Assembly (NCBI GenBank): GCA_003133545.1
Contig: PKYA01000075.1
Location: 14,647 to 61,864 of the forward strand
DNA length: 47,218 nt
Direction of reading: 5' to 3'
Origin: Acidimicrobiaceae bacterium
GTDB taxonomy: Bacteria; Actinomycetota; Acidimicrobiia; Acidimicrobiales; RAAP-2
Shown: positions 18,682-46,499 of the stretch, in pieces
Layout of the letters: the number at the start of each line of letters is the position of its first letter
Position numbering within the stretch: the first letter of the stretch is position 1
Translations under genes and position numbers: made by a program
The notes under the pieces: generated by a model
What the model was told of the DNA's origin: nothing
Seen by the model: the letters and a program-made list of their open reading frames with translations, nothing else
The model's database searches: none

Positions 18682-19965
18682 TCACTCCCGGAAGAAACGG
18701 GGCAAGTGGTGGCGGTTGGCCGCCAGGAGCGCGTCGGCCAGCTCGGCGGCCAGCGGATACTGCCCGACGAGCGGATTGGTGAGGAGCGCGCGCACGACAT
18801 CGTCGCGGCTCCCCGAGCAGGCTGCCCTGACGGCCAGCCGCTCGTAGGCCTTGGCGTGTTGTACGAGCCCCAGCATCTCGGGCGGGAGCGGCCGCTGCGG
18901 CAGCGGATGGGCGCCGCTGGCATCGACCACGGCACGCGTCTCGATGACGGCGTCGTCGGGTAGGCCGGGGATGGCGCCGTCGTTTCGCATGTCGACGACC
19001 TGCACGTCGCCCGTGCCGGCGTGGAGCGAGGCCATCAGCCGCACCGCGGCCAGCGAATAGAAGGCACCGCCGCGATAGGAGAGGGCCTTCGGCTTGGTGA
19101 CGAGCTCGGGATTGCGATACTCCTCGAGCAGGGTTGCCTCGAGCTCGGCCACGACTTCGGCCCGCGAGCGGTGTCCGGGGACGGACTGTTGGGCCACTTC
19201 GGCGTCGTGCTGGTAGTAGTAGTGCACGTAGTAGGACGGAAGGGCGGCCAGCAACTTGAGCGCCTCGATCGGGACGCCGCTCTCGAGCTCGAGCTCGGGG
19301 CCGAAGCGCGCGAAGAGCTCGGGCAGCCGGTCATCGGGCTCTCCCGCCAGGCGGGCCGAGCGGATCCAGGTCAGATGGTTCAGTCCGACGTGCTCGATCT
19401 CGACGCCGTCGGGATCGACGCCGAGGTAGTGCCCCAGCCGGCGTTGGGCCCAGATGGCCACATTGCACAGGCCCACGGCACGGTGCCCTTCGTCGAGCAG
19501 GGCCTGGGTGACGATGCCGACGGGGTTGGTGAAGTCCACGAACCAAGCCCCCGGATTGCCTCGTTGCGCCGTCTCCTCGGCCAGCTCGAGCACCGTGGGC
19601 ACTGTGCGCAAGGCCTTGGCCAGACCTCCGGCTCCCGTCGTCTCCTGCCCGAGGCACCCGAAACCGACGGGAAGTGTCTCGTCGACGTGACGGGCCGCCT
19701 GCCCCCCGATGCGCAATTGGACGACGACGAAATCGGCACCTTCGAGGGCGGCATGCCGATCATCCGTGGTGGAGAAGGATCCGCTCCAGCCTCGTGTGCG
19801 CAAGATACGCTCGCAGAGGTCCCCAACTACCACCCGGCGCTCCTCGCTCGGATCGAGCAGGACGAGATCGTCGACGACCATCCGGTCTTCGTGGTCGCAC
19901 AGTCCCTCCACCAGCTCCGGTGTGTAGGTGCTCCCACCTCCCGCGACGGCAACTTTGATCCCCAC
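18682..19965 (-). CDS. Glycoside hydrolase family 4 (6-phospho-beta-glucosidase-like)
   Basis: GH4 enzymes use NAD+ and a divalent metal to cleave glycosides through a redox-elimination mechanism. The 427-residue protein has the NAD-binding motif VAVAGGGSTYTPELVEG (5-21), FVDFTNPVGIVTQAL, the metal/substrate motif GLCNV containing Cys-Asn, and VGLNHLTW with its conserved His. These fit the 6-phospho-beta-glucosidase branch rather than alpha-galactosidase MelA, but substrate is not certain. GTG 19965 diverges from the adjacent kinase; the two starts are 22 bp apart, suggesting joint control. It ends 9 bp from the convergent CapA gene. Confidence 0.92.
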   Translation of the reverse strand: MGIKVAVAGGGSTYTPELVEGLCDHEDRMVVDDLVLLDPSEERRVVVGDLCERILRTRGWSGSFSTTDDRHAALEGADFVVVQLRIGGQAARHVDETLPVGFGCLGQETTGAGGLAKALRTVPTVLELAEETAQRGNPGAWFVDFTNPVGIVTQALLDEGHRAVGLCNVAIWAQRRLGHYLGVDPDGVEIEHVGLNHLTWIRSARLAGEPDDRLPELFARFGPELELESGVPIEALKLLAALPSYYVHYYYQHDAEVAQQSVPGHRSRAEVVAELEATLLEEYRNPELVTKPKALSYRGGAFYSLAAVRLMASLHAGTGDVQVVDMRNDGAIPGLPDDAVIETRAVVDASGAHPLPQRPLPPEMLGLVQHAKAYERLAVRAACSGSRDDVVRALLTNPLVGQYPLAAELADALLAANRHHLPRFFRE

Positions 19966-19987
19966 ACGGGCAACGTACTATCCGGGA
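19955..19987. promoter_or_regulatory. Divergent promoter shared by GH4 gene and sugar kinase
   Basis: Plus strand: TTGATC (19955-19960), 15 bases, then TACTAT (19976-19981), exactly six bases before the kinase ATG at 19988. Read on the other strand the same bases give GATAGT, nine bases before the GH4 GTG. A near-symmetric -10 element serving both directions, with a leaderless kinase mRNA, is the simplest reading. The -35 for the GH4 direction is not evident. Confidence 0.45.
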
Positions 19988-20986
19988 ATGCCCAACCAGA
20001 TGGTGCCCGTCTTGCTGGCCCTCGATGGCGGGAGCTCGAAGACCGACGCCGTGCTCGTGGCCGCCGACGGCACGTTGCTGGGCCGCGCCCGCGCCGGCCC
20101 GAGCAACCACCAGCTCGTGGGCGTCGACGCCGCGGTTGACGCGGTGGGAGAAGCCATCGCGTCCGTGCTCACGGCCGCGGGCATCGTCGACCCACCGTTC
20201 CCCCTCTGTGACACGGGCGTCTACTGCCTGGCCGGCATCGATCTCCCCGTCGACGAGGAGCGACTGCGCCCGGCCATCGCGCTCCGGGGCTGGACGGGGA
20301 CCGACCTGCTGCGCAACGACACGTTCGCCGTCTCGAGGGCGGGCACGCAGTCGACCTGGGGCATCGGCGTCGTCTGCGGGACGGGGATGAACTGCGCCGG
20401 CGTGGGCCCTGACGGGCAGTCGGTCCGCTTTCCGGCCCTGGCCGAGCTCTCGGGAGACTTCGCCCCAGGCGGGTCATGGCTGGGCGTCCGAGCACTCGGG
20501 CTGGCGCTGCGCGCCGGCGACGGGCGGGGGGCACCCACCCTGCTCAGCGAGCGGGTGCCCGCCCATTTCGGGCAGCCCGACGCCGATGCGGTGCTGAGCG
20601 GGATCTACACCGGGACCATCCCCTACGGCCAGATCTTCGAGCTGGCGCGGGTGCTCCTCGACGCAGCCGCCGATGGTGACCAGCCGGCGCGCCAGGCGGC
20701 GGACATGTTGGCCGACGAGGTGAGCACCTTCGCCCGGGCCGCCATCAACCGGCTGGGGGTACGCGACTTGGAGGTCGAGGTGGTCCTGGGCGGCGGCGTA
20801 TTCGACACCGACGACGCCGCATTCCATGCCCGGGTCGCGGATGGGATCCAGGACGCGGCCCCCCGTGCGATCCTGCGCCGGCTCAGCGCGCCGCCGGTGC
20901 TGGGGGCGGCACTGCTCGGCCTCGATGCCATCGGCGCGGACGATGCCGCCAAGGACCGGCTCCGGGCCGCCCTCGTGCGCCAGTGA
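19988..20986 (+). CDS. BadF/BadG/BcrA-type ATPase, N-acetylglucosamine kinase-like
   Basis: The 332-residue protein opens with the actin-fold phosphate-1 loop LALDGGSSKTDAVL (8-21) and contains CGTGMNCAGVG (phosphate-2) and VVLGGGVF near the adenosine loop, as in eukaryote-type N-acetylglucosamine kinases and the BadF/BcrA ATPase family (Pfam PF01869). The ring-reductase activators of that family carry Cys ligands for an iron-sulfur cluster; these are not seen, so a sugar kinase is preferred. The divergent GH4 gene acts on phosphorylated sugars, consistent with a shared sugar or amino-sugar salvage role. It converges with the fused transporter, stops being 3 bp apart. Confidence 0.88.
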   Translation: MPNQMVPVLLALDGGSSKTDAVLVAADGTLLGRARAGPSNHQLVGVDAAVDAVGEAIASVLTAAGIVDPPFPLCDTGVYCLAGIDLPVDEERLRPAIALRGWTGTDLLRNDTFAVSRAGTQSTWGIGVVCGTGMNCAGVGPDGQSVRFPALAELSGDFAPGGSWLGVRALGLALRAGDGRGAPTLLSERVPAHFGQPDADAVLSGIYTGTIPYGQIFELARVLLDAAADGDQPARQAADMLADEVSTFARAAINRLGVRDLEVEVVLGGGVFDTDDAAFHARVADGIQDAAPRAILRRLSAPPVLGAALLGLDAIGADDAAKDRLRAALVRQ

Positions 20987-20989
20987 TTC

Positions 20990-23050
20990 CTACGAGGCGA
21001 GCCCGGCTGCGGCCACCGGTGGGCGCGGGAGCGCGTCGTCGACCATGCGGTCGTCGTCGGCCAACAGCGCGTTGGCCAACTTCCTGACCATCTCGATCAC
21101 CTCGGGGTGCTCCTTTGGGTTCCACCCTTCCAGCAATTCGGTCAACCCGCTGCGCCGCGCTTCGGTCAGGCGGTCGATGGCATCCGTGCCGGCCGGTGTC
21201 AACGCCAGGTCGGGGTCGTCGCCGCGCTGGACCTCGGCGACCATGCCGGCGGCGATCAGACCGTCCACCGCCGAGCGGATGATGGCGCTGTCGACCTTCA
21301 AGCGCGCCGCTACCTCCTTCACCGTGCACGCCGGCCGGTCGGCCAACCGGTAGAGGAGCCAGCACGACCGCGGTGGCAGGTCGATGCCGGCCCGCTGGGC
21401 CAGCGTCTCGTAGAGCTCGTTCCGGTTCTCCCGGCTGGAGAAACGCTCCAGTGCCAGCTGGATCTCCTCGAGCGACGAACGCGAGTCCGGCATCCCGAAG
21501 CCCTCACCGAGATCGACGGTCTCGATCGACTTGCGCAGGGCGAGCTCGGGCAGGAGCCAGCTGAGGAAGAAGGCCACCGCGGAGATGGGGACGGCCACCA
21601 AGAAGACCGTCTGCACGGCCGTGGTGATCCCAGCGATGACCTTGCCGTACACCACAGGATCCACCTTCGCCAGCGCGTGGAGGGCGGAAGGGTCCTGGGT
21701 GTCGAGGTTGAACCTCGACGCGATGCTCTTCGGAAGCGCGGCGATGAGCGGCCGCAATTTGGAGGACAGCACGTTGGCATAAATGGCGCCGAACACGGCC
21801 GTGCCGAAGGATCCACCGATCATGCGGAAGAAGACGGCGTTGGACGTTGCCACGCCGAGGTCCTGATACGAAACGGCGTTCTGCACGGCCACGACGAGCA
21901 CCTGCATGACAAGGCCCAGGCCGACGCCGAACACGAACATGTAGCCCGCAGTGACCCAGGTTCCCGTATGGATACCGATGAGGGACATGAGGTAGACCCC
22001 CGCCGTCATGAGCACGCCGCCGACGATCGGGAAGATCTTGTAGCGGCCCCATCGGGTCACGAGTCGGCCCGACACGATGGCCGAGCCGAGCAACCCCAGC
22101 ATGAGGGGGAACAGGCGCAGTCCCGACAACGTCGGGCTGACGTTCTTCACGTTCTGCAAGAACAGCGGGAGGAAGGTCAGCGCGCCGAACATGGCGAAGC
22201 CCACCACGAACCCGATGGCACTGGCGGCCGTGAACACGCGCACCCGGAAGAGCCTGAGCGGCACCACCGGCTCCCGGGCTCGTTGCTCCACGAGAAGGAA
22301 CAGAAGCGTCAGGACGACCCCACCCACCGCCAGGCCGATGCTCTGATCGGACCCCCAGCTCCACGAGATACCTCCGAGGCTGGCGAAGATGATCAGCACG
22401 GTGGCCGCCCCCGAGAGCATGAGGGTCCCCAGGTAGTCGATCGTGTGGTGCACCCGCGCCAGCGACCCGGGTAAGACGGCTCCGGTCACGAAGAGAGCCA
22501 GTACCCCGAGTGGCAGGTTGATGTAGAAGACCCAGCGCCAGGAGAGGTAGGTCACGCAGAGCCCACCGATGAGCGGCCCGATGACGGTGGCGACGCCGAA
22601 CATGGCACCGAACAGTCCCATGTAGCGACCCCGTTCCCGAGGAGAGACGACGTCGCCGATGATCGTCTGCGAGCCCACCAGAAGGCCCCCGCCCCCCAGT
22701 CCCTGAACGGCGCGGAAGGCGATCAACTCGGTCATGGTGTGGCTGAAACCCGATAGGGCAGATCCGACCACGAAGATGGCGATGGCGGCCTGGAAGAAGA
22801 ACTTCCGTCCGTACTGGTCCCCCAGCTTGCCCCACAGCGGTGTCGAGACGGTGGACGACAACAGATACGCCGTCACTACCCAGGCCAGGTGAGAACCCCC
22901 GTGAAGGTCTCCCACGATGGTGGGCAGCGCGGTCGAGACGATGGTGCCGTCCAGAGCGGCCAGCAACATCCCGAGCAAGAGCGCGCCGAGGATGAACCAG
23001 AGCCGACGTTTGGTGATCTGCTCGGACGCCGGAGGCACCGCGATGGTCAC
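20990..23050 (-). CDS. DHA2-type MFS drug transporter fused to a C-terminal MarR-like winged helix
   Basis: Residues about 15-510 form a 14-helix DHA2 (EmrB/QacA) proton-coupled drug exporter: motif A GKLGDQYGRK, motif C-like GLFGAMFGVATVIGPLIGG, and a DGTIVSTALPTI start. After a charged linker (about 515-560) comes a 120-residue wHTH resembling MarR proteins: ARLKVDSAIIRSAVDGLI as recognition helix region, DLALTPAG wing end, and LTEARRSGLTELLEGWN. The last stretch matches the stand-alone MarR at 45999-46499 in register. GTG 23050 has GAGGAG six bases upstream; ATG 23071 has it directly abutting, so the shorter form is used. A membrane-tethered drug-responsive regulator is possible. Confidence 0.92.
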   Translation of the reverse strand: MTIAVPPASEQITKRRLWFILGALLLGMLLAALDGTIVSTALPTIVGDLHGGSHLAWVVTAYLLSSTVSTPLWGKLGDQYGRKFFFQAAIAIFVVGSALSGFSHTMTELIAFRAVQGLGGGGLLVGSQTIIGDVVSPRERGRYMGLFGAMFGVATVIGPLIGGLCVTYLSWRWVFYINLPLGVLALFVTGAVLPGSLARVHHTIDYLGTLMLSGAATVLIIFASLGGISWSWGSDQSIGLAVGGVVLTLLFLLVEQRAREPVVPLRLFRVRVFTAASAIGFVVGFAMFGALTFLPLFLQNVKNVSPTLSGLRLFPLMLGLLGSAIVSGRLVTRWGRYKIFPIVGGVLMTAGVYLMSLIGIHTGTWVTAGYMFVFGVGLGLVMQVLVVAVQNAVSYQDLGVATSNAVFFRMIGGSFGTAVFGAIYANVLSSKLRPLIAALPKSIASRFNLDTQDPSALHALAKVDPVVYGKVIAGITTAVQTVFLVAVPISAVAFFLSWLLPELALRKSIETVDLGEGFGMPDSRSSLEEIQLALERFSSRENRNELYETLAQRAGIDLPPRSCWLLYRLADRPACTVKEVAARLKVDSAIIRSAVDGLIAAGMVAEVQRGDDPDLALTPAGTDAIDRLTEARRSGLTELLEGWNPKEHPEVIEMVRKLANALLADDDRMVDDALPRPPVAAAGLAS

Positions 23051-23260
23051 GCTGTTCTCCTCACGACTCATCTCCTCGGGGCACCGGTGTCTTCACCGTA
23101 ACGCCGGCGGCAGGTCGCTGTGAGCACACCGGCTACTCTTCGGGCGCAAGGTGAGCCGGGAAGACTGGTCGGCGAGCGAAGGACCGCGCCATGACCAACC
23201 CTGACCACCAGCCCGCCGCCACCATCGCCCCGGCGCGGCGCGCCGTGGTGGGCTCAGTCG

Positions 23261-24643
23261 ATGGATGACGACGCCGGCTTGAGCGGGCCGGCACGGCCGT
23301 GGCGCACGGATCGGGCGAGCTTGCCCAGCTGGCGTTGGGAGTCACTCCGCACCACGTTCTGGCTCGTCCCCACCGTGCTCATCGTCTTCGCCGCCCTCTT
23401 GTTCGTGGTGACGCTGGAGATCGACTGGGCGGCCTACCACGGCCACATCACCTTCCCGTTCTGGATCAGGTCGGAAAGCCCCGATGGCGGCCGCGAGGTG
23501 CTCATCGCCATCGCGGCGGCGGTGATCACCGTGGTGGGCGTCGTGTTCTCCATCACGATCCTGGCCCTCACGCTGGCCTCCCAGCAATTTGGTCCGCGCA
23601 TGATGCGCAACTTCGTGCGCGACGTCGGCAACCAGTTGACGCTGGGAATCTTCGTGGCCACGTTCGTCTACTCGGTCCTCGCGCTCGGCTCCATCACGTC
23701 CACTTCCCGTGGCGCGTTCGTTCCCCATCTGACGATCACCGTCGCCGAGGCACTCCTGCTCGTGGACCTGGGCGTCCTCATCTACTTCATCCACCACATC
23801 GCCAAGTCCATTCAGCTGCCCGAGGTGATCGCCGGCATCGCCCGCGACCTGACCCGTGCGATCGACGCCGAGTTCCCGCTCCGCCCCGGTGATTCGGCCC
23901 CCCGCGCCCAACTCGACACCGGGCGCTCGGTGCCCGAGCTCATCGCGCTGATCAACGAGAGGGGGGCCACCGTGCCCTCCCACGCGAGCGGCTATCTCCA
24001 ATTCGTTGGCTACGCCCAGCTGGTCGACATCGCCGCCCACCTCGACGCCGTGGTGCGCCTGGATCACAGGCCTGGTCACTTCATCGTCTCCGGGCAGCCG
24101 CTGGCCACCGTCTGGCCGGGTGGCGCGGCGGCGCAGGTCGAGGCCGCCCTGGCCAAGGCCCATGTCACCGGCCCGCACCGCACCCTCATGCAGGATCCCG
24201 TCTTTGCCATCGATCAGCTCGTCGAGATCGCCATCCGGGCGCTCTCGCCCGCGGTGAACGACACGTTCACGGCGCTCACCTGCATCGACTGGCTGGCGGC
24301 CGGATTGGGGCGGGTCTCGGGCCGCGAGCTCGCCGAGGGTGTGTACCGCGACGAAGAAGGGCGGGTGCGGCTCATCGAGTCGGATCCCTCCTACGAGCGG
24401 ATGGCCAACCGCGCCTTCGACAAGATCCGCCAGTCGTCGCGCGGCATGCCTGCGGTCATCATCCGGATGCTCGATGCCCTCTCCTCCGTCATGAACGACA
24501 CGACATCGGACGAGCAACGGCGGATCTTGACGCGCCAAGCCGACATGATTCTTCGCAGCGCCGAGGAGTCGGTGACCGAGCCAAACGACCTGGCTGACAT
24601 CCGGTTCCGCTACGCACGGCTGATCGACCGCTTCCCGGCGTAG
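23261..24643 (+). CDS. DUF2254 predicted membrane protein
   Basis: The 460-residue product has four hydrophobic helices in its first 200 residues (TTFWLVPTVLIVFAALLFVV near 31-50, then around 82-105, 125-147 and 155-178) and a large soluble C-terminal half. The internal motifs SITILALTLASQQFGPRMMRNF and DPVFAIDQLVEIAIRALSPAVNDTFTA are the hallmark of DUF2254. Function is unknown; the family is widespread in actinobacteria and proteobacteria. ATG 23261 is used; there is no clear ribosome site. It is divergent from the DHA2-MarR gene with about 210 bp between them, where nothing else convincing is seen. Confidence 0.9.
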   Translation: MDDDAGLSGPARPWRTDRASLPSWRWESLRTTFWLVPTVLIVFAALLFVVTLEIDWAAYHGHITFPFWIRSESPDGGREVLIAIAAAVITVVGVVFSITILALTLASQQFGPRMMRNFVRDVGNQLTLGIFVATFVYSVLALGSITSTSRGAFVPHLTITVAEALLLVDLGVLIYFIHHIAKSIQLPEVIAGIARDLTRAIDAEFPLRPGDSAPRAQLDTGRSVPELIALINERGATVPSHASGYLQFVGYAQLVDIAAHLDAVVRLDHRPGHFIVSGQPLATVWPGGAAAQVEAALAKAHVTGPHRTLMQDPVFAIDQLVEIAIRALSPAVNDTFTALTCIDWLAAGLGRVSGRELAEGVYRDEEGRVRLIESDPSYERMANRAFDKIRQSSRGMPAVIIRMLDALSSVMNDTTSDEQRRILTRQADMILRSAEESVTEPNDLADIRFRYARLIDRFPA

Positions 24644-43238: not shown

Positions 43239-43316
43239 ATAGGCCTCATTTGACAATAAATCAATGATATTCTAATATAGGCTTATGCCTATGTTCTATG
43301 AAGAGCAGGAGCCTAT
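43239..43316 (+). promoter_or_regulatory. arsR promoter and ATAGGC/GCCTAT operator array
   Basis: TTGACA (43250-43255), exactly 17 bases and TAATAT (43273-43278) make an almost perfect sigma-70 promoter; six bases later is the arsR ATG, so the message is probably leaderless. ATAGGC-TTAT-GCCTAT (43277-43292) is a perfect inverted repeat over the start site. Further half sites are ATAGGC at 43239-43244 and GCCTAT at 43311-43316. The arrangement fits autorepression. Confidence 0.7.
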
Positions 43317-44349
43317 ACCGCTCCCGCCCATCTTCCTCTCCTCCCCCTCGCTGGCCTGCGATCTGACCTGGGTCCTGTGGGTGGCGCTGCGCCCGGCGTG
43401 GCGCGCGGACTTCCCCCTCGCCACCGAGCTTCTCGAGCAGCGTGAGGACCTGATCGACCGGATCTGCGCCTTCTGGGGCGACACCGGACCCGGCGTCTGC
43501 TTCACCGAGCTGCAGATCCTGGCCCACCACGCTGGAGCGCTCGGCGAGCCGTCCCCCGCCGCGCTGTGGGCCGCCGTCGAGAATGCCGTCGCCACCGTGC
43601 CGACAGACCTCGGATTGGAGTCCGAGAGCGCCGAGGACCGGGCCATCTTCTTGCGCCGGCTCGAGTTGCTGAAGGCCTCCCCCGCCATGGTCGGCGCCTA
43701 CATCGACCTCCTGCGCGACGTGTGGGACCTCGTCGACGAGATCTGGCAGGCCGCCCTTCCGGCCTTGGAAGAGTCCGGGCGCCGCGTTGTGGCCCAGCTC
43801 GAGAGCGGGCGTGGGCTGGGTGAGCTCGTGGGTGACCCGTGTGAGACATTCGACTCGTGGCTGCCCGCCATCAATGCGCATATCGGGTCCGGCCAGCCCT
43901 TGCTGGTGGTGCCGTGCATGTTCTTCGGCAAGTGCCTCTACCTGGAGTTCCCCGGCCTCACCCTCGTCGGCTCCGGGTTCCGGCGCGACGACGTCGCGGC
44001 GCGTGCCCGCACCGAGCTCCTGGCCCGCCGACTCAAGACGGTGGCGGACCCCACCCGCCTGGCGCTGCTGCACTACTTGGCCCGGACCCCGAGCACGGTG
44101 GGCACCCTGGCGAGCACCTTCGGCCTGGCGCAGCCGACCGTGAGCATGCACATGAAGTCGCTCCGCGAATCGGGACTGGTACACGCGGAGAGGTCCGGTG
44201 GACGGCTTGAGCTGCGCGCCGACCCCGAGGCGGTGGATGCCCTGCTCGCCGAGCTGCGCGGCGTGATCGTGCGCGACGCCGGCACGACGCCAAGCGGGCT
44301 GACCGGCGCGAACGCTTCCGACGCGCCGTACGCCGTGGCGCAGTCGTAG
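43285..44349 (+). CDS. Large ArsR-type transcriptional regulator
   Basis: The 354-residue product has an N-terminal region of about 240 residues with no enzyme motif, and a C-terminal ArsR winged helix (about 245-325): RLKTVADPTRLALLHYLARTP, then TLASTFGLAQPTVSMHMKSLRESGLV (recognition helix) and the wing SGGRLELRADPEAVDALL. Actinobacterial ArsR relatives with this large N-terminal domain (DUF5937-like) are known but uncharacterised. Cys residues in the N-terminal part (such as VPCMFFGKCLYLEF) could bind a ligand or metal. ATG 43285 lies at the predicted start of transcription; ATG 43291 is an alternative. It converges with the DHA2 gene, stops 5 bp apart. Confidence 0.88.
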   Translation: MPMFYEEQEPIPLPPIFLSSPSLACDLTWVLWVALRPAWRADFPLATELLEQREDLIDRICAFWGDTGPGVCFTELQILAHHAGALGEPSPAALWAAVENAVATVPTDLGLESESAEDRAIFLRRLELLKASPAMVGAYIDLLRDVWDLVDEIWQAALPALEESGRRVVAQLESGRGLGELVGDPCETFDSWLPAINAHIGSGQPLLVVPCMFFGKCLYLEFPGLTLVGSGFRRDDVAARARTELLARRLKTVADPTRLALLHYLARTPSTVGTLASTFGLAQPTVSMHMKSLRESGLVHAERSGGRLELRADPEAVDALLAELRGVIVRDAGTTPSGLTGANASDAPYAVAQS

Positions 44350-44353
44350 CCGG

Positions 44354-46006
44354 CTACAGCTCGACGAAGCCGGCGACGGCTCGGTCCGGCTCGGACCCTT
44401 CGCTCCCCTCGCCGGGCGCCGCGGTAACCAGGGCCGTGGTGCGCAACGGGATCTCCTTCATGATGAGGCTGAGCACGACCGCCAGCGCGGCGAACGGCAC
44501 AGCCACGAGGAACACGTCCTGCAGGGCGTGGCTGAACGCGTCGACCACGACGGCCCGCTGGGCGGGCGGCAGGTGGTCGATCTGTGCCGGGTTGGCGGTG
44601 ATGCTGCCGCCGTGGAGCAAGCGGAGCTGCGCCTTGGTGGCGTGCGCCGAGAGTTGGCTGAGCAGGCGGCTGTCGAACACGGCGCCGAGAGCGGACACGC
44701 CGAACGCGCCCCCGATGGTGCGGAAGAACGTCGCCGTCGAAGTGGCCACGCCCAGCTGGGAGTAGGGCACCGCGTTCTGCACGGCCACGACGAGCACCTG
44801 CAGGACCAGCCCGACGCCCAGGCCGACCACGAACATGTACGACGCCGCCACCGGCAGCGTCGTGTGCGGGCCGAGCCGGGAGAGGAGCACCAACCCGACC
44901 GTGAGCACGGCCGAGCCGGCCACGGGGAAGATCTTGTACCGGCCGGTGCGGGTGACGAGGCGCCCGCTCACGATGAAGGTGATCAGCATGCCCGTGACGA
45001 CCGGCAGTACTTCCAACCCCGACGCCGTCGGCGTCGCCCCGTGGACCGCCTGGAGGTAGAGGGGCAGGTAGATGATGGCGCCGAACATGGCGACGCCGAT
45101 GATGAAGCCCACTCCCGAGGCCGAGCTGAACGTGCGGTTGCGGAAGAGTGCGAGCGGGATGACCGGCTCGGTGGACCTGGTTTCCACCACGCAGAAGGCG
45201 ACGAGCAGCACGACGCTGACGAGGGCCAACCCGAGGATCGGAGCTGAACCCCATCGGTACTGCGTCCCGCCCCACGTAGTCATGAGGATGATGGCCGTGA
45301 CGCCGGCGGACAGGAGGGAGATCCCGGCCCAGTCGATCTTGTGGTGCACACGGTTGGTGGGGAGGTGGAGCACCGCGGCGATGACGAACAGGGCCACGAT
45401 GCCGATGGGTACGTTGATGTAGAAGATCCACCGCCACGAGAGGTGCTGGGTGAACAGCCCGCCGGCCAGGGGCCCCGCCACGCTGGTCACGCCGAACACG
45501 ACGCCGAAGTACCCCATGTACTTGCCGCGCTGGCGGGCCGGCACGACGTCGCCGATGATCGCTTGCGCGCCCACCATGAGGCCGCCCGCCCCGACGCCCT
45601 GGACGGCTCGGAAGGCGATCAACTCCACCATGCTCTGCGAGAGCCCCGAGAGCATGGAGCCGACCAAGAAGATCACGATCGCCAGCTGGAAGAGGTTCTT
45701 CCGCCCGTAGAGATCGCCCAGCTTGCCCCACAGCGGTGTCGAGATGGTCGTGGTCAAGAGGTAGGCGGTCACCACCCAGTACAGATGGTTGAGGCCGTGC
45801 AGATCGCCGGCGATGGTGGGTAGCGCCGTGGCCACAATCGTCTGATCGAGCGCGGCCAGGAACATGCCCAGCATCAGCGCGCCCAAGACCACCAGTATCC
45901 GGCGATGCTCCTCGCCCGTGGGCGCCCCGAACCCGAGCGCCTGCGCCGAGGGCCCATCGCCTACCGGGGGCACGGGCGACGCAGGCACGGCGGTGACGTC
46001 AGTCGA
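44354..46006 (-). CDS. DHA2 family MFS drug transporter (14 TM)
   Basis: A 550-residue proton-coupled exporter: DQTIVATALPTI, motif A GKLGDLYGRK, then AIIGDVVPARQRGKYMG, and a motif C-like VVFGVTSVAGPLAGGLF. Helices continue to about residue 510, followed by a short charged tail. It is a paralogue of the transporter part at 20990-23050, with closely similar helices, but lacks the fused winged helix. GTG 46006 overlaps the marR stop by 8 bp. The order marR-DHA2 implies that the upstream regulator controls it. Confidence 0.93.
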   Translation of the reverse strand, partial: STDVTAVPASPVPPVGDGPSAQALGFGAPTGEEHRRILVVLGALMLGMFLAALDQTIVATALPTIAGDLHGLNHLYWVVTAYLLTTTISTPLWGKLGDLYGRKNLFQLAIVIFLVGSMLSGLSQSMVELIAFRAVQGVGAGGLMVGAQAIIGDVVPARQRGKYMGYFGVVFGVTSVAGPLAGGLFTQHLSWRWIFYINVPIGIVALFVIAAVLHLPTNRVHHKIDWAGISLLSAGVTAIILMTTWGGTQYRWGSAPILGLALVSVVLLVAFCVVETRSTEPVIPLALFRNRTFSSASGVGFIIGVAMFGAIIYLPLYLQAVHGATPTASGLEVLPVVTGMLITFIVSGRLVTRTGRYKIFPVAGSAVLTVGLVLLSRLGPHTTLPVAASYMFVVGLGVGLVLQVLVVAVQNAVPYSQLGVATSTATFFRTIGGAFGVSALGAVFDSRLLSQLSAHATKAQLRLLHGGSITANPAQIDHLPPAQRAVVVDAFSHALQDVFLVAVPFAALAVVLSLIMKEIPLRTTALVTAAPGEGSEGSEPDRAVAGFVEL

Positions 46007-46499
46007 CACGGGCGTCCTCGAGGTCGCGCTGCAGTGCGGAGGAGAAGCGCCCGAGGAGGGTGGCGAAGCTGTGCAGGTCAGCATTGTTCCAGCCCGAGAG
46101 CAGACCCTCGTACCACTCGCGCCGGGCCTCGAGGACCCGCGCCAACGTCTGACTCCCGGCCGGGGTGAGCATGATGCGGGTGGCGCGCCGGTCGTCGGGA
46201 TCGGGCCGGCGGGAGATCAGGCGCTCGCGTTCGAGCTGCTGGATCTTCCGGGTGACCGTCGGCGCGTCGACCCCAAGCAGCTCGGCCAGGTCGGTCACGC
46301 GCAACCCGTCGCCGTGGATGTGCAGTTTGTAGAGCAGGGCCGATCCCGCCCGGTCGAGCCGGACCCCCGCCGCGGTGAGCAGCCGCTCGTGCAGGCGCAC
46401 TTGGGTGATCGAACCGGCGACAACCTGGAATGCAGCCTGAATCTGGTCCACCGAACCATTCGCCGGGACGGCGGGTCGCGTTTTAGTTGCTTTCGGCAC
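45999..46499 (-). CDS. MarR family transcriptional regulator
   Basis: A 166-residue MarR protein: DLAELLGVDAPTVTRKIQQLERERLI (wHTH helix 3 and recognition helix), RPDPDDRRATRIMLTPAG (wing), and EARREWYEGLLSGWN. GTG 46499 lies exactly six bases after TATGAT, so it is probably leaderless. The N-terminus is Lys/Thr-rich. Codons 3-6 are part of an inverted repeat that should be its own operator. It precedes the DHA2 exporter with which it overlaps. Confidence 0.94.
   Translation of the reverse strand: MPKATKTRPAVPANGSVDQIQAAFQVVAGSITQVRLHERLLTAAGVRLDRAGSALLYKLHIHGDGLRVTDLAELLGVDAPTVTRKIQQLERERLISRRPDPDDRRATRIMLTPAGSQTLARVLEARREWYEGLLSGWNNADLHSFATLLGRFSSALQRDLEDARVD

Follow-up and report, generated by a model that had tools for sequence, protein, structure and literature searches.

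A DHA2-family exporter of Actinomycetota with a covalently attached MarR-like domain that has most likely lost its ability to read DNA

Results

The gene at 20990..23050 on the minus strand of our window, by which we mean the whole 47,218-nucleotide stretch of DNA analysed, encodes a 686-aa protein in which a DHA2 exporter is followed by a C-terminal MarR-like domain. Judged by its sequence, this domain most likely no longer reads DNA. The best explanation, which we hold to be probable, is that the MarR domain has been disarmed as a DNA reader and acts in cis on the DHA2 pump that carries it. We infer action in cis from the covalent linkage of the two parts and from the conservation of the domain, and a role on the pump itself would be the most economical reading of both.

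A DHA2 exporter and a MarR-like domain in one open frame

A single uninterrupted open frame spans positions 20990-23071 of the minus strand. It has an in-frame ATG at 23071, but the GTG at 23050 is the likelier start, having a better-spaced GAGGAG, and close relatives can begin there too. The first-pass annotation, made from the letters alone, had described this gene as an exporter fused to its own MarR-like regulator. The continuous frame, Pfam matches to both MFS_1 (E 7.5e-54) and MarR_2 (E 5.9e-7, above the curated cut-off), and the recurrence of the architecture in relatives bear out the fusion. An assembly artefact or a chance resemblance was ruled out by the recurrence of the fusion in 48 of 48 independent loci, together with the fold of the domain.

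The transporter domain (residues 14-497; 21560..23011, minus strand) has 14 predicted membrane helices and the DHA2-type motifs LDGTIVSTALP (33-43), GKLGDQYGRK (74-83) and GPLIGG (158-163). It scored 238 bits against TIGR00711, for which the cut-off is 230.2, placing it in the DHA2 family. Its AlphaFold model (mean pLDDT 82) contained 14 long helices within residues 14-497, in agreement with DHA2 topology. Because the number of helices is even, both termini lie on the same side of the membrane, so the C-terminus is cytosolic. The closest folds to the transporter half, in a fold search with the whole protein, were EmrB, EfpA and QacA. That search returned transporters throughout, and the MarR-like domain was therefore modelled separately. 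The product is presumably a proton-coupled exporter of the DHA2 family.

The fused gene stands by itself in the window: the DUF2254 gene on one side is divergent from it, and the BadF-type kinase gene on the other is convergent. That BadF/BcrA-type kinase gene and a gene for a family 4 glycoside hydrolase occupy the adjoining positions 18682-20986. Genes resembling a glycoside hydrolase and a kinase also flank the fused gene in two other loci (L029 and L032), and a hydrolase-like gene does so in a third (L030).

The C-terminal domain has a MarR fold

Between pump and domain lies a linker (residues 507-523; 21482..21532, minus strand) that was modelled with low confidence (pLDDT <50 at 507-522), so the AlphaFold model fixes no contact between the two. 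The MarR-like winged-helix domain itself comprises residues 524-673 (21032..21481, minus strand). A MarR-like C-terminus had been proposed at the outset with a length of 120 residues; its presence held, and its actual length is about 150. In the full-length AlphaFold model, built with 34 sequences, the 14 membrane helices were followed by elements in MarR order, and the domain modelled alone reached a pLDDT of 87. Nearly all PDB matches listed for it were annotated as MarR family, DNA-bound entries among them, with Foldseek E-values of about 1e-4 to 1e-3 and VIA Z scores of 9.6-11.2 across roughly 100-130 residues. The rmsd to these MarR matches was high, mostly 4-6 Å, which settles the fold and not the detail. 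Structure prediction thus confirmed a winged helix, with the a1/a5/a6 helical body of MarR proteins, and no other fold was predicted that would speak against the earlier assignment.

The fusion is widespread and old

A search within the same family detected the domain at high score in 15 of 37 genomes, and the frames measured about 560-770 aa if the contig was long enough to hold them; one match (genome G003) was truncated by a contig end and the transporter of another (L023) was divided over two frames. Scanning named genomes with a profile of the domain gave 48 loci. The frame holding the domain ran on upstream at every one of them, and the domain stood behind a DHA2 transporter wherever the contig extended far enough, two or three of the loci ending before much of the transporter was visible. 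These loci came from Acidimicrobiia metagenome-assembled genomes, Actinomadura, Rhizohabitans, Acrocarpospora, Actinocorallia and Actinopolymorpha, with Streptosporangiaceae represented. In a census of the phylum, 17 of the 296 genomes drawn held a full-length fused match in which transporter and domain were then checked; eight belonged to one Streptomyces-like genus and five to one mycobacteria-like family. The search of actinobacterial genomes suggested by the first-pass annotation therefore recovered the same fusion in Acidimicrobiia, Actinomadura, Streptosporangiaceae, Actinopolymorpha, and Streptomyces-like and mycobacteria-like genomes. Fusion at 48 of 48 named-genome loci over so wide a range of taxa indicates that it is old.

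Several frames needed individual attention. In L073:3226-5507, one of the 48 named-genome loci, the domain and most of its transporter lie in different overlapping frames, as do the two transporter parts in L023:1-1989, through a frameshift or a sequencing error in each case. A frame of about 690 aa (L129, genome G255) was rejected as a further fusion since its transporter occupies a separate overlapping downstream frame, making it a MarR-DHA2 pair, and a long frame around a MarR domain (L006) was rejected because it contains no transporter.

Pfam reported no MarR domain in four fused pumps (L053, L119, L124 and L130), all of which the fused-domain profile matched. The window protein does receive a Pfam MarR annotation, but none of the Actinomadura, mycobacteria-like and Streptomyces-like pumps that we checked did, so the feature may have been missed. 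A literature search, which covered subscription journals little, returned no description of a DHA2-MarR fusion architecture.

An unfused pair in the same window

The window also holds the two parts as separate genes, as had been noticed at the outset. The unfused DHA2 exporter (44354..46009, minus strand) lies directly downstream of a stand-alone MarR regulator (45999..46499, minus strand; Pfam MarR E 9.1e-14), and its probable GTG start at 46009 overlaps the end of the MarR gene. The regulator has an intact recognition-helix Arg and a basic wing. The two transporters were 54% identical over 519 residues, and the fused MarR part was 29% identical to the stand-alone MarR over 154 residues (E 4e-13; hhalign 98.4%). 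The short motifs first used to align the two, LTPAGTDAIDRLTEARR and LLEGWN in the fusion with LTPAGSQTLARVLEARR and LLSGWN in the stand-alone protein, are present and fall inside one continuous alignment. Next to the pair, at 43285-44349, lies a gene for a protein of 354 aa whose C-terminal part is an ArsR-type helix-turn-helix.

A recent local duplication was rejected as the source of the window copies, as trees placed the fused parts with fused relatives and the paired parts with paired relatives. The fused domains formed a single clade against stand-alone MarRs (support 100/98). A tree of the transporters was compatible with the fused ones lying to one side of a branch. In a reduced set, a tree that keeps them together explained the data no worse than the unconstrained one (p-AU 0.52), so a single origin is possible, whether or not losses followed. 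Within the comparison set, the unfused transporters nearest to the fused ones lie immediately downstream of a MarR gene and so belong to MarR-DHA2 pairs themselves. Simple operon read-through cannot have produced the fusion, because the MarR part comes first in the pair and last in the fusion. Instead, a MarR-DHA2 pair may have been duplicated in tandem, with the pump of the first copy then fused to the regulator of the second.

The DNA-reading elements have degenerated under overall purifying selection

We compared 68 fused domains with 33 stand-alone MarR domains, the latter retrieved with the fused-domain profile. In the window protein the degenerate recognition helix a4 covers residues 588-600 (21251..21289, minus strand) and the degenerate wing residues 604-617 (21200..21241, minus strand). 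At column 593 of the recognition helix, Arg occurred in 32 of the 33 stand-alone MarRs and in none of the 68 fused domains, where Pro was commonest (37/68) and the window protein has Ser. Stand-alone domains had a mean a4 net charge of +0.48, fused domains one of -1.37. The fused wing was shorter (mean length 11.7 against 17.0) and carried fewer basic residues (mean 1.37 against 3.73). The fused domains thus lack two marks of MarR proteins, a basic recognition helix bearing the typical Arg and a basic wing. Column entropy was higher in fused than in stand-alone domains in a3, a4 and the wing, and lower in every other element.

The degeneration has exceptions. The first-pass annotation had named loss of all basic recognition-helix residues as evidence against its reading; this loss holds in substance, as the typical Arg is gone throughout, and not to the letter, as a shifted R592 is present in 25 of the 68. 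Actinomadura-type fused domains retain this residue and an RR ahead of the wing, and may make weak or unspecific contact with DNA. The Arg itself is typical of MarR proteins and not essential to them, since the separate MarRs encoded at three loci (L032, L041 and L044) also have no Arg in a4 and keep DRRR in the wing.

Other positions, in the helical body of the fused domains, were nearly invariant: W564 (codon 21359..21361, minus strand; 68/68), R568 (64/68), Y547 (63/68), E529 (62/68) and also S526. Stand-alone MarRs mostly had different residues at the W564, R568, Y547 and E529 positions. Pairwise dN/dS over the whole fused domain, calculated by a simple method from few sites, was 0.18-0.53, and the domain is under purifying selection. 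By the same method and with the same paucity of sites, dN/dS in the a4-wing region exceeded that of the whole domain in eight of nine computable pairs; in the ninth, L062/L066, it was slightly lower (0.28 against 0.31).

These results bear on the suggestion that the protein is a membrane-anchored one-component regulator, its domain binding both drug and DNA and controlling the pump gene from the membrane. MarR proteins commonly regulate efflux genes, the domain is a genuine winged helix of the MarR fold, and some Actinomadura-type members keep an Arg near the recognition helix. A search for an operator in the intergenic region 23040-23275 found just short, imperfect, GC-rich inverted repeats, which were not compared with chance. 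Against it stand the absence of Arg at column 593, the acidic a4, the short and basic-poor wing, the fact that the DNA-reading elements are the least conserved of the domain, the higher dN/dS of the a4-wing region in most pairs, and the separate MarR genes that adjoin some fused genes. We therefore set aside the membrane-anchored DNA-binding sensor proposed initially, and consider it very unlikely.

Some fused genes lie behind separate MarR genes

At least four fused genes are preceded by a separate MarR gene, either directly or ahead of their operon, and in all four (L032, L041, L044 and L147) the upstream gene was identified as MarR by Pfam. The order was MarR, MMPL transporter, fused pump in L032 and L041, and MarR, fused pump in L044 and L147, with 4-bp overlaps throughout. 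A separate MarR beside some fused genes means that the tail need not act as the operon's regulator. The regions L032:497-5495 and L041:518-5507 place two exporters of different families downstream of one apparent regulator. In L147:3822-6421, where the end of a separate MarR gene and the start of the fused pump share 4 bp, a regulator and an apparently disarmed copy share one operon.

The MarR-MMPL-fused strings also raise the idea of a docking platform, in which the domain recruits a partner: the MMPL transporter, where its gene lies upstream, or some other protein of the cytosol. However, a directly upstream MMPL gene was confirmed in these two loci only, and most fused genes, that of the window included, are without one. 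We consider docking very unlikely.

A probable role in cis on the pump

Our preferred reading, a MarR domain disarmed for DNA and acting on its own pump, leaves the manner of that action to be considered. Most likely the domain would pair with the cytosolic face of the pump or with a second copy of itself through the helical body formed by a1, a2, a5 and a6. It may sense a cytosolic substrate through the ancestral MarR ligand pocket and so adjust transport. The first-pass annotation had alternatively proposed a degenerate domain that now gates the transporter; the data agree with a degenerate domain in the service of the pump, and we offer gating by a ligand in the retained pocket as a hypothesis.

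The domain might instead help the pump to fold, insert into the membrane, dimerise or remain stable, with no ligand sensing at all. Purifying selection and the conserved helical body are compatible with such a structural module, and a1, a5 and a6 build the dimer interface in MarR proteins. The near-invariant W/Y/R cluster in a1-a2, by argument only, is not obviously required for a dimer surface. We regard a purely structural role as rather unlikely, though a more serious contender than docking or DNA binding.

If the cis-acting reading is true, the fusion shows clearly how a domain of a transcription factor can become a module of a transporter. The pump subfamily concerned occurs throughout Actinomycetota and probably includes a mycobacterial pump linked to drug and spermine tolerance. 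The C-terminal domain would then be a cytosolic handle on pump activity. A bolder version, which we advance tentatively and would not expect to hold in full, is that this actinobacterial subfamily, probably including Rv1877, has a built-in ligand-sensing valve derived from a former MarR protein, its sensor acting on transport and not on transcription.

Comparison with known systems

EmrB, QacA and EfpA, all of the TIGR00711 family, resemble the transporter half of the fused pump, but no matched solved structure aligned over its C-terminal winged-helix domain. The MarR regulators Rv1404, YusO, MepR and SlyA share the fold and topology of that domain; unlike them, it is covalently joined to a 14-helix pump, has lost the typical recognition-helix Arg and has a reduced wing. 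Two-gene MarR-DHA2 operons, such as that at 44354-46499 in the window, have parts homologous to those of the fusion, but as separate proteins and with MarR first.

Rv1877 of mycobacteria is probably a described member of the fused family. Mycobacteria-like census genomes encoded a fused homologue in frames of 695-753 aa, plus one longer frame, and the fused-domain profile matched the C-terminus of these pumps. In one of them (L119) the fused pump stands between a ferritin-family gene and a small gene, beyond which come those for a glutamine synthetase and an amidohydrolase, an order resembling the rv1876-rv1879 region, described as bfrA-rv1877-glnA3-rv1879 (PMC10956863). Judging by gene order, the mycobacteria-like fused pumps are probably Rv1877 orthologues. 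Published accounts of Rv1877 present it as an efflux pump for multiple drugs and spermine; in them we found no mention of its C-terminal domain. The window gene shares with Rv1877-type pumps the DHA2 transporter and a C-terminal domain matching the fused-domain profile, but the bfrA-pump-glnA3 order is absent there, its flanks being the BadF-type kinase and DUF2254 genes. It is a member of the wider fused family and not a syntenic orthologue of Rv1877.
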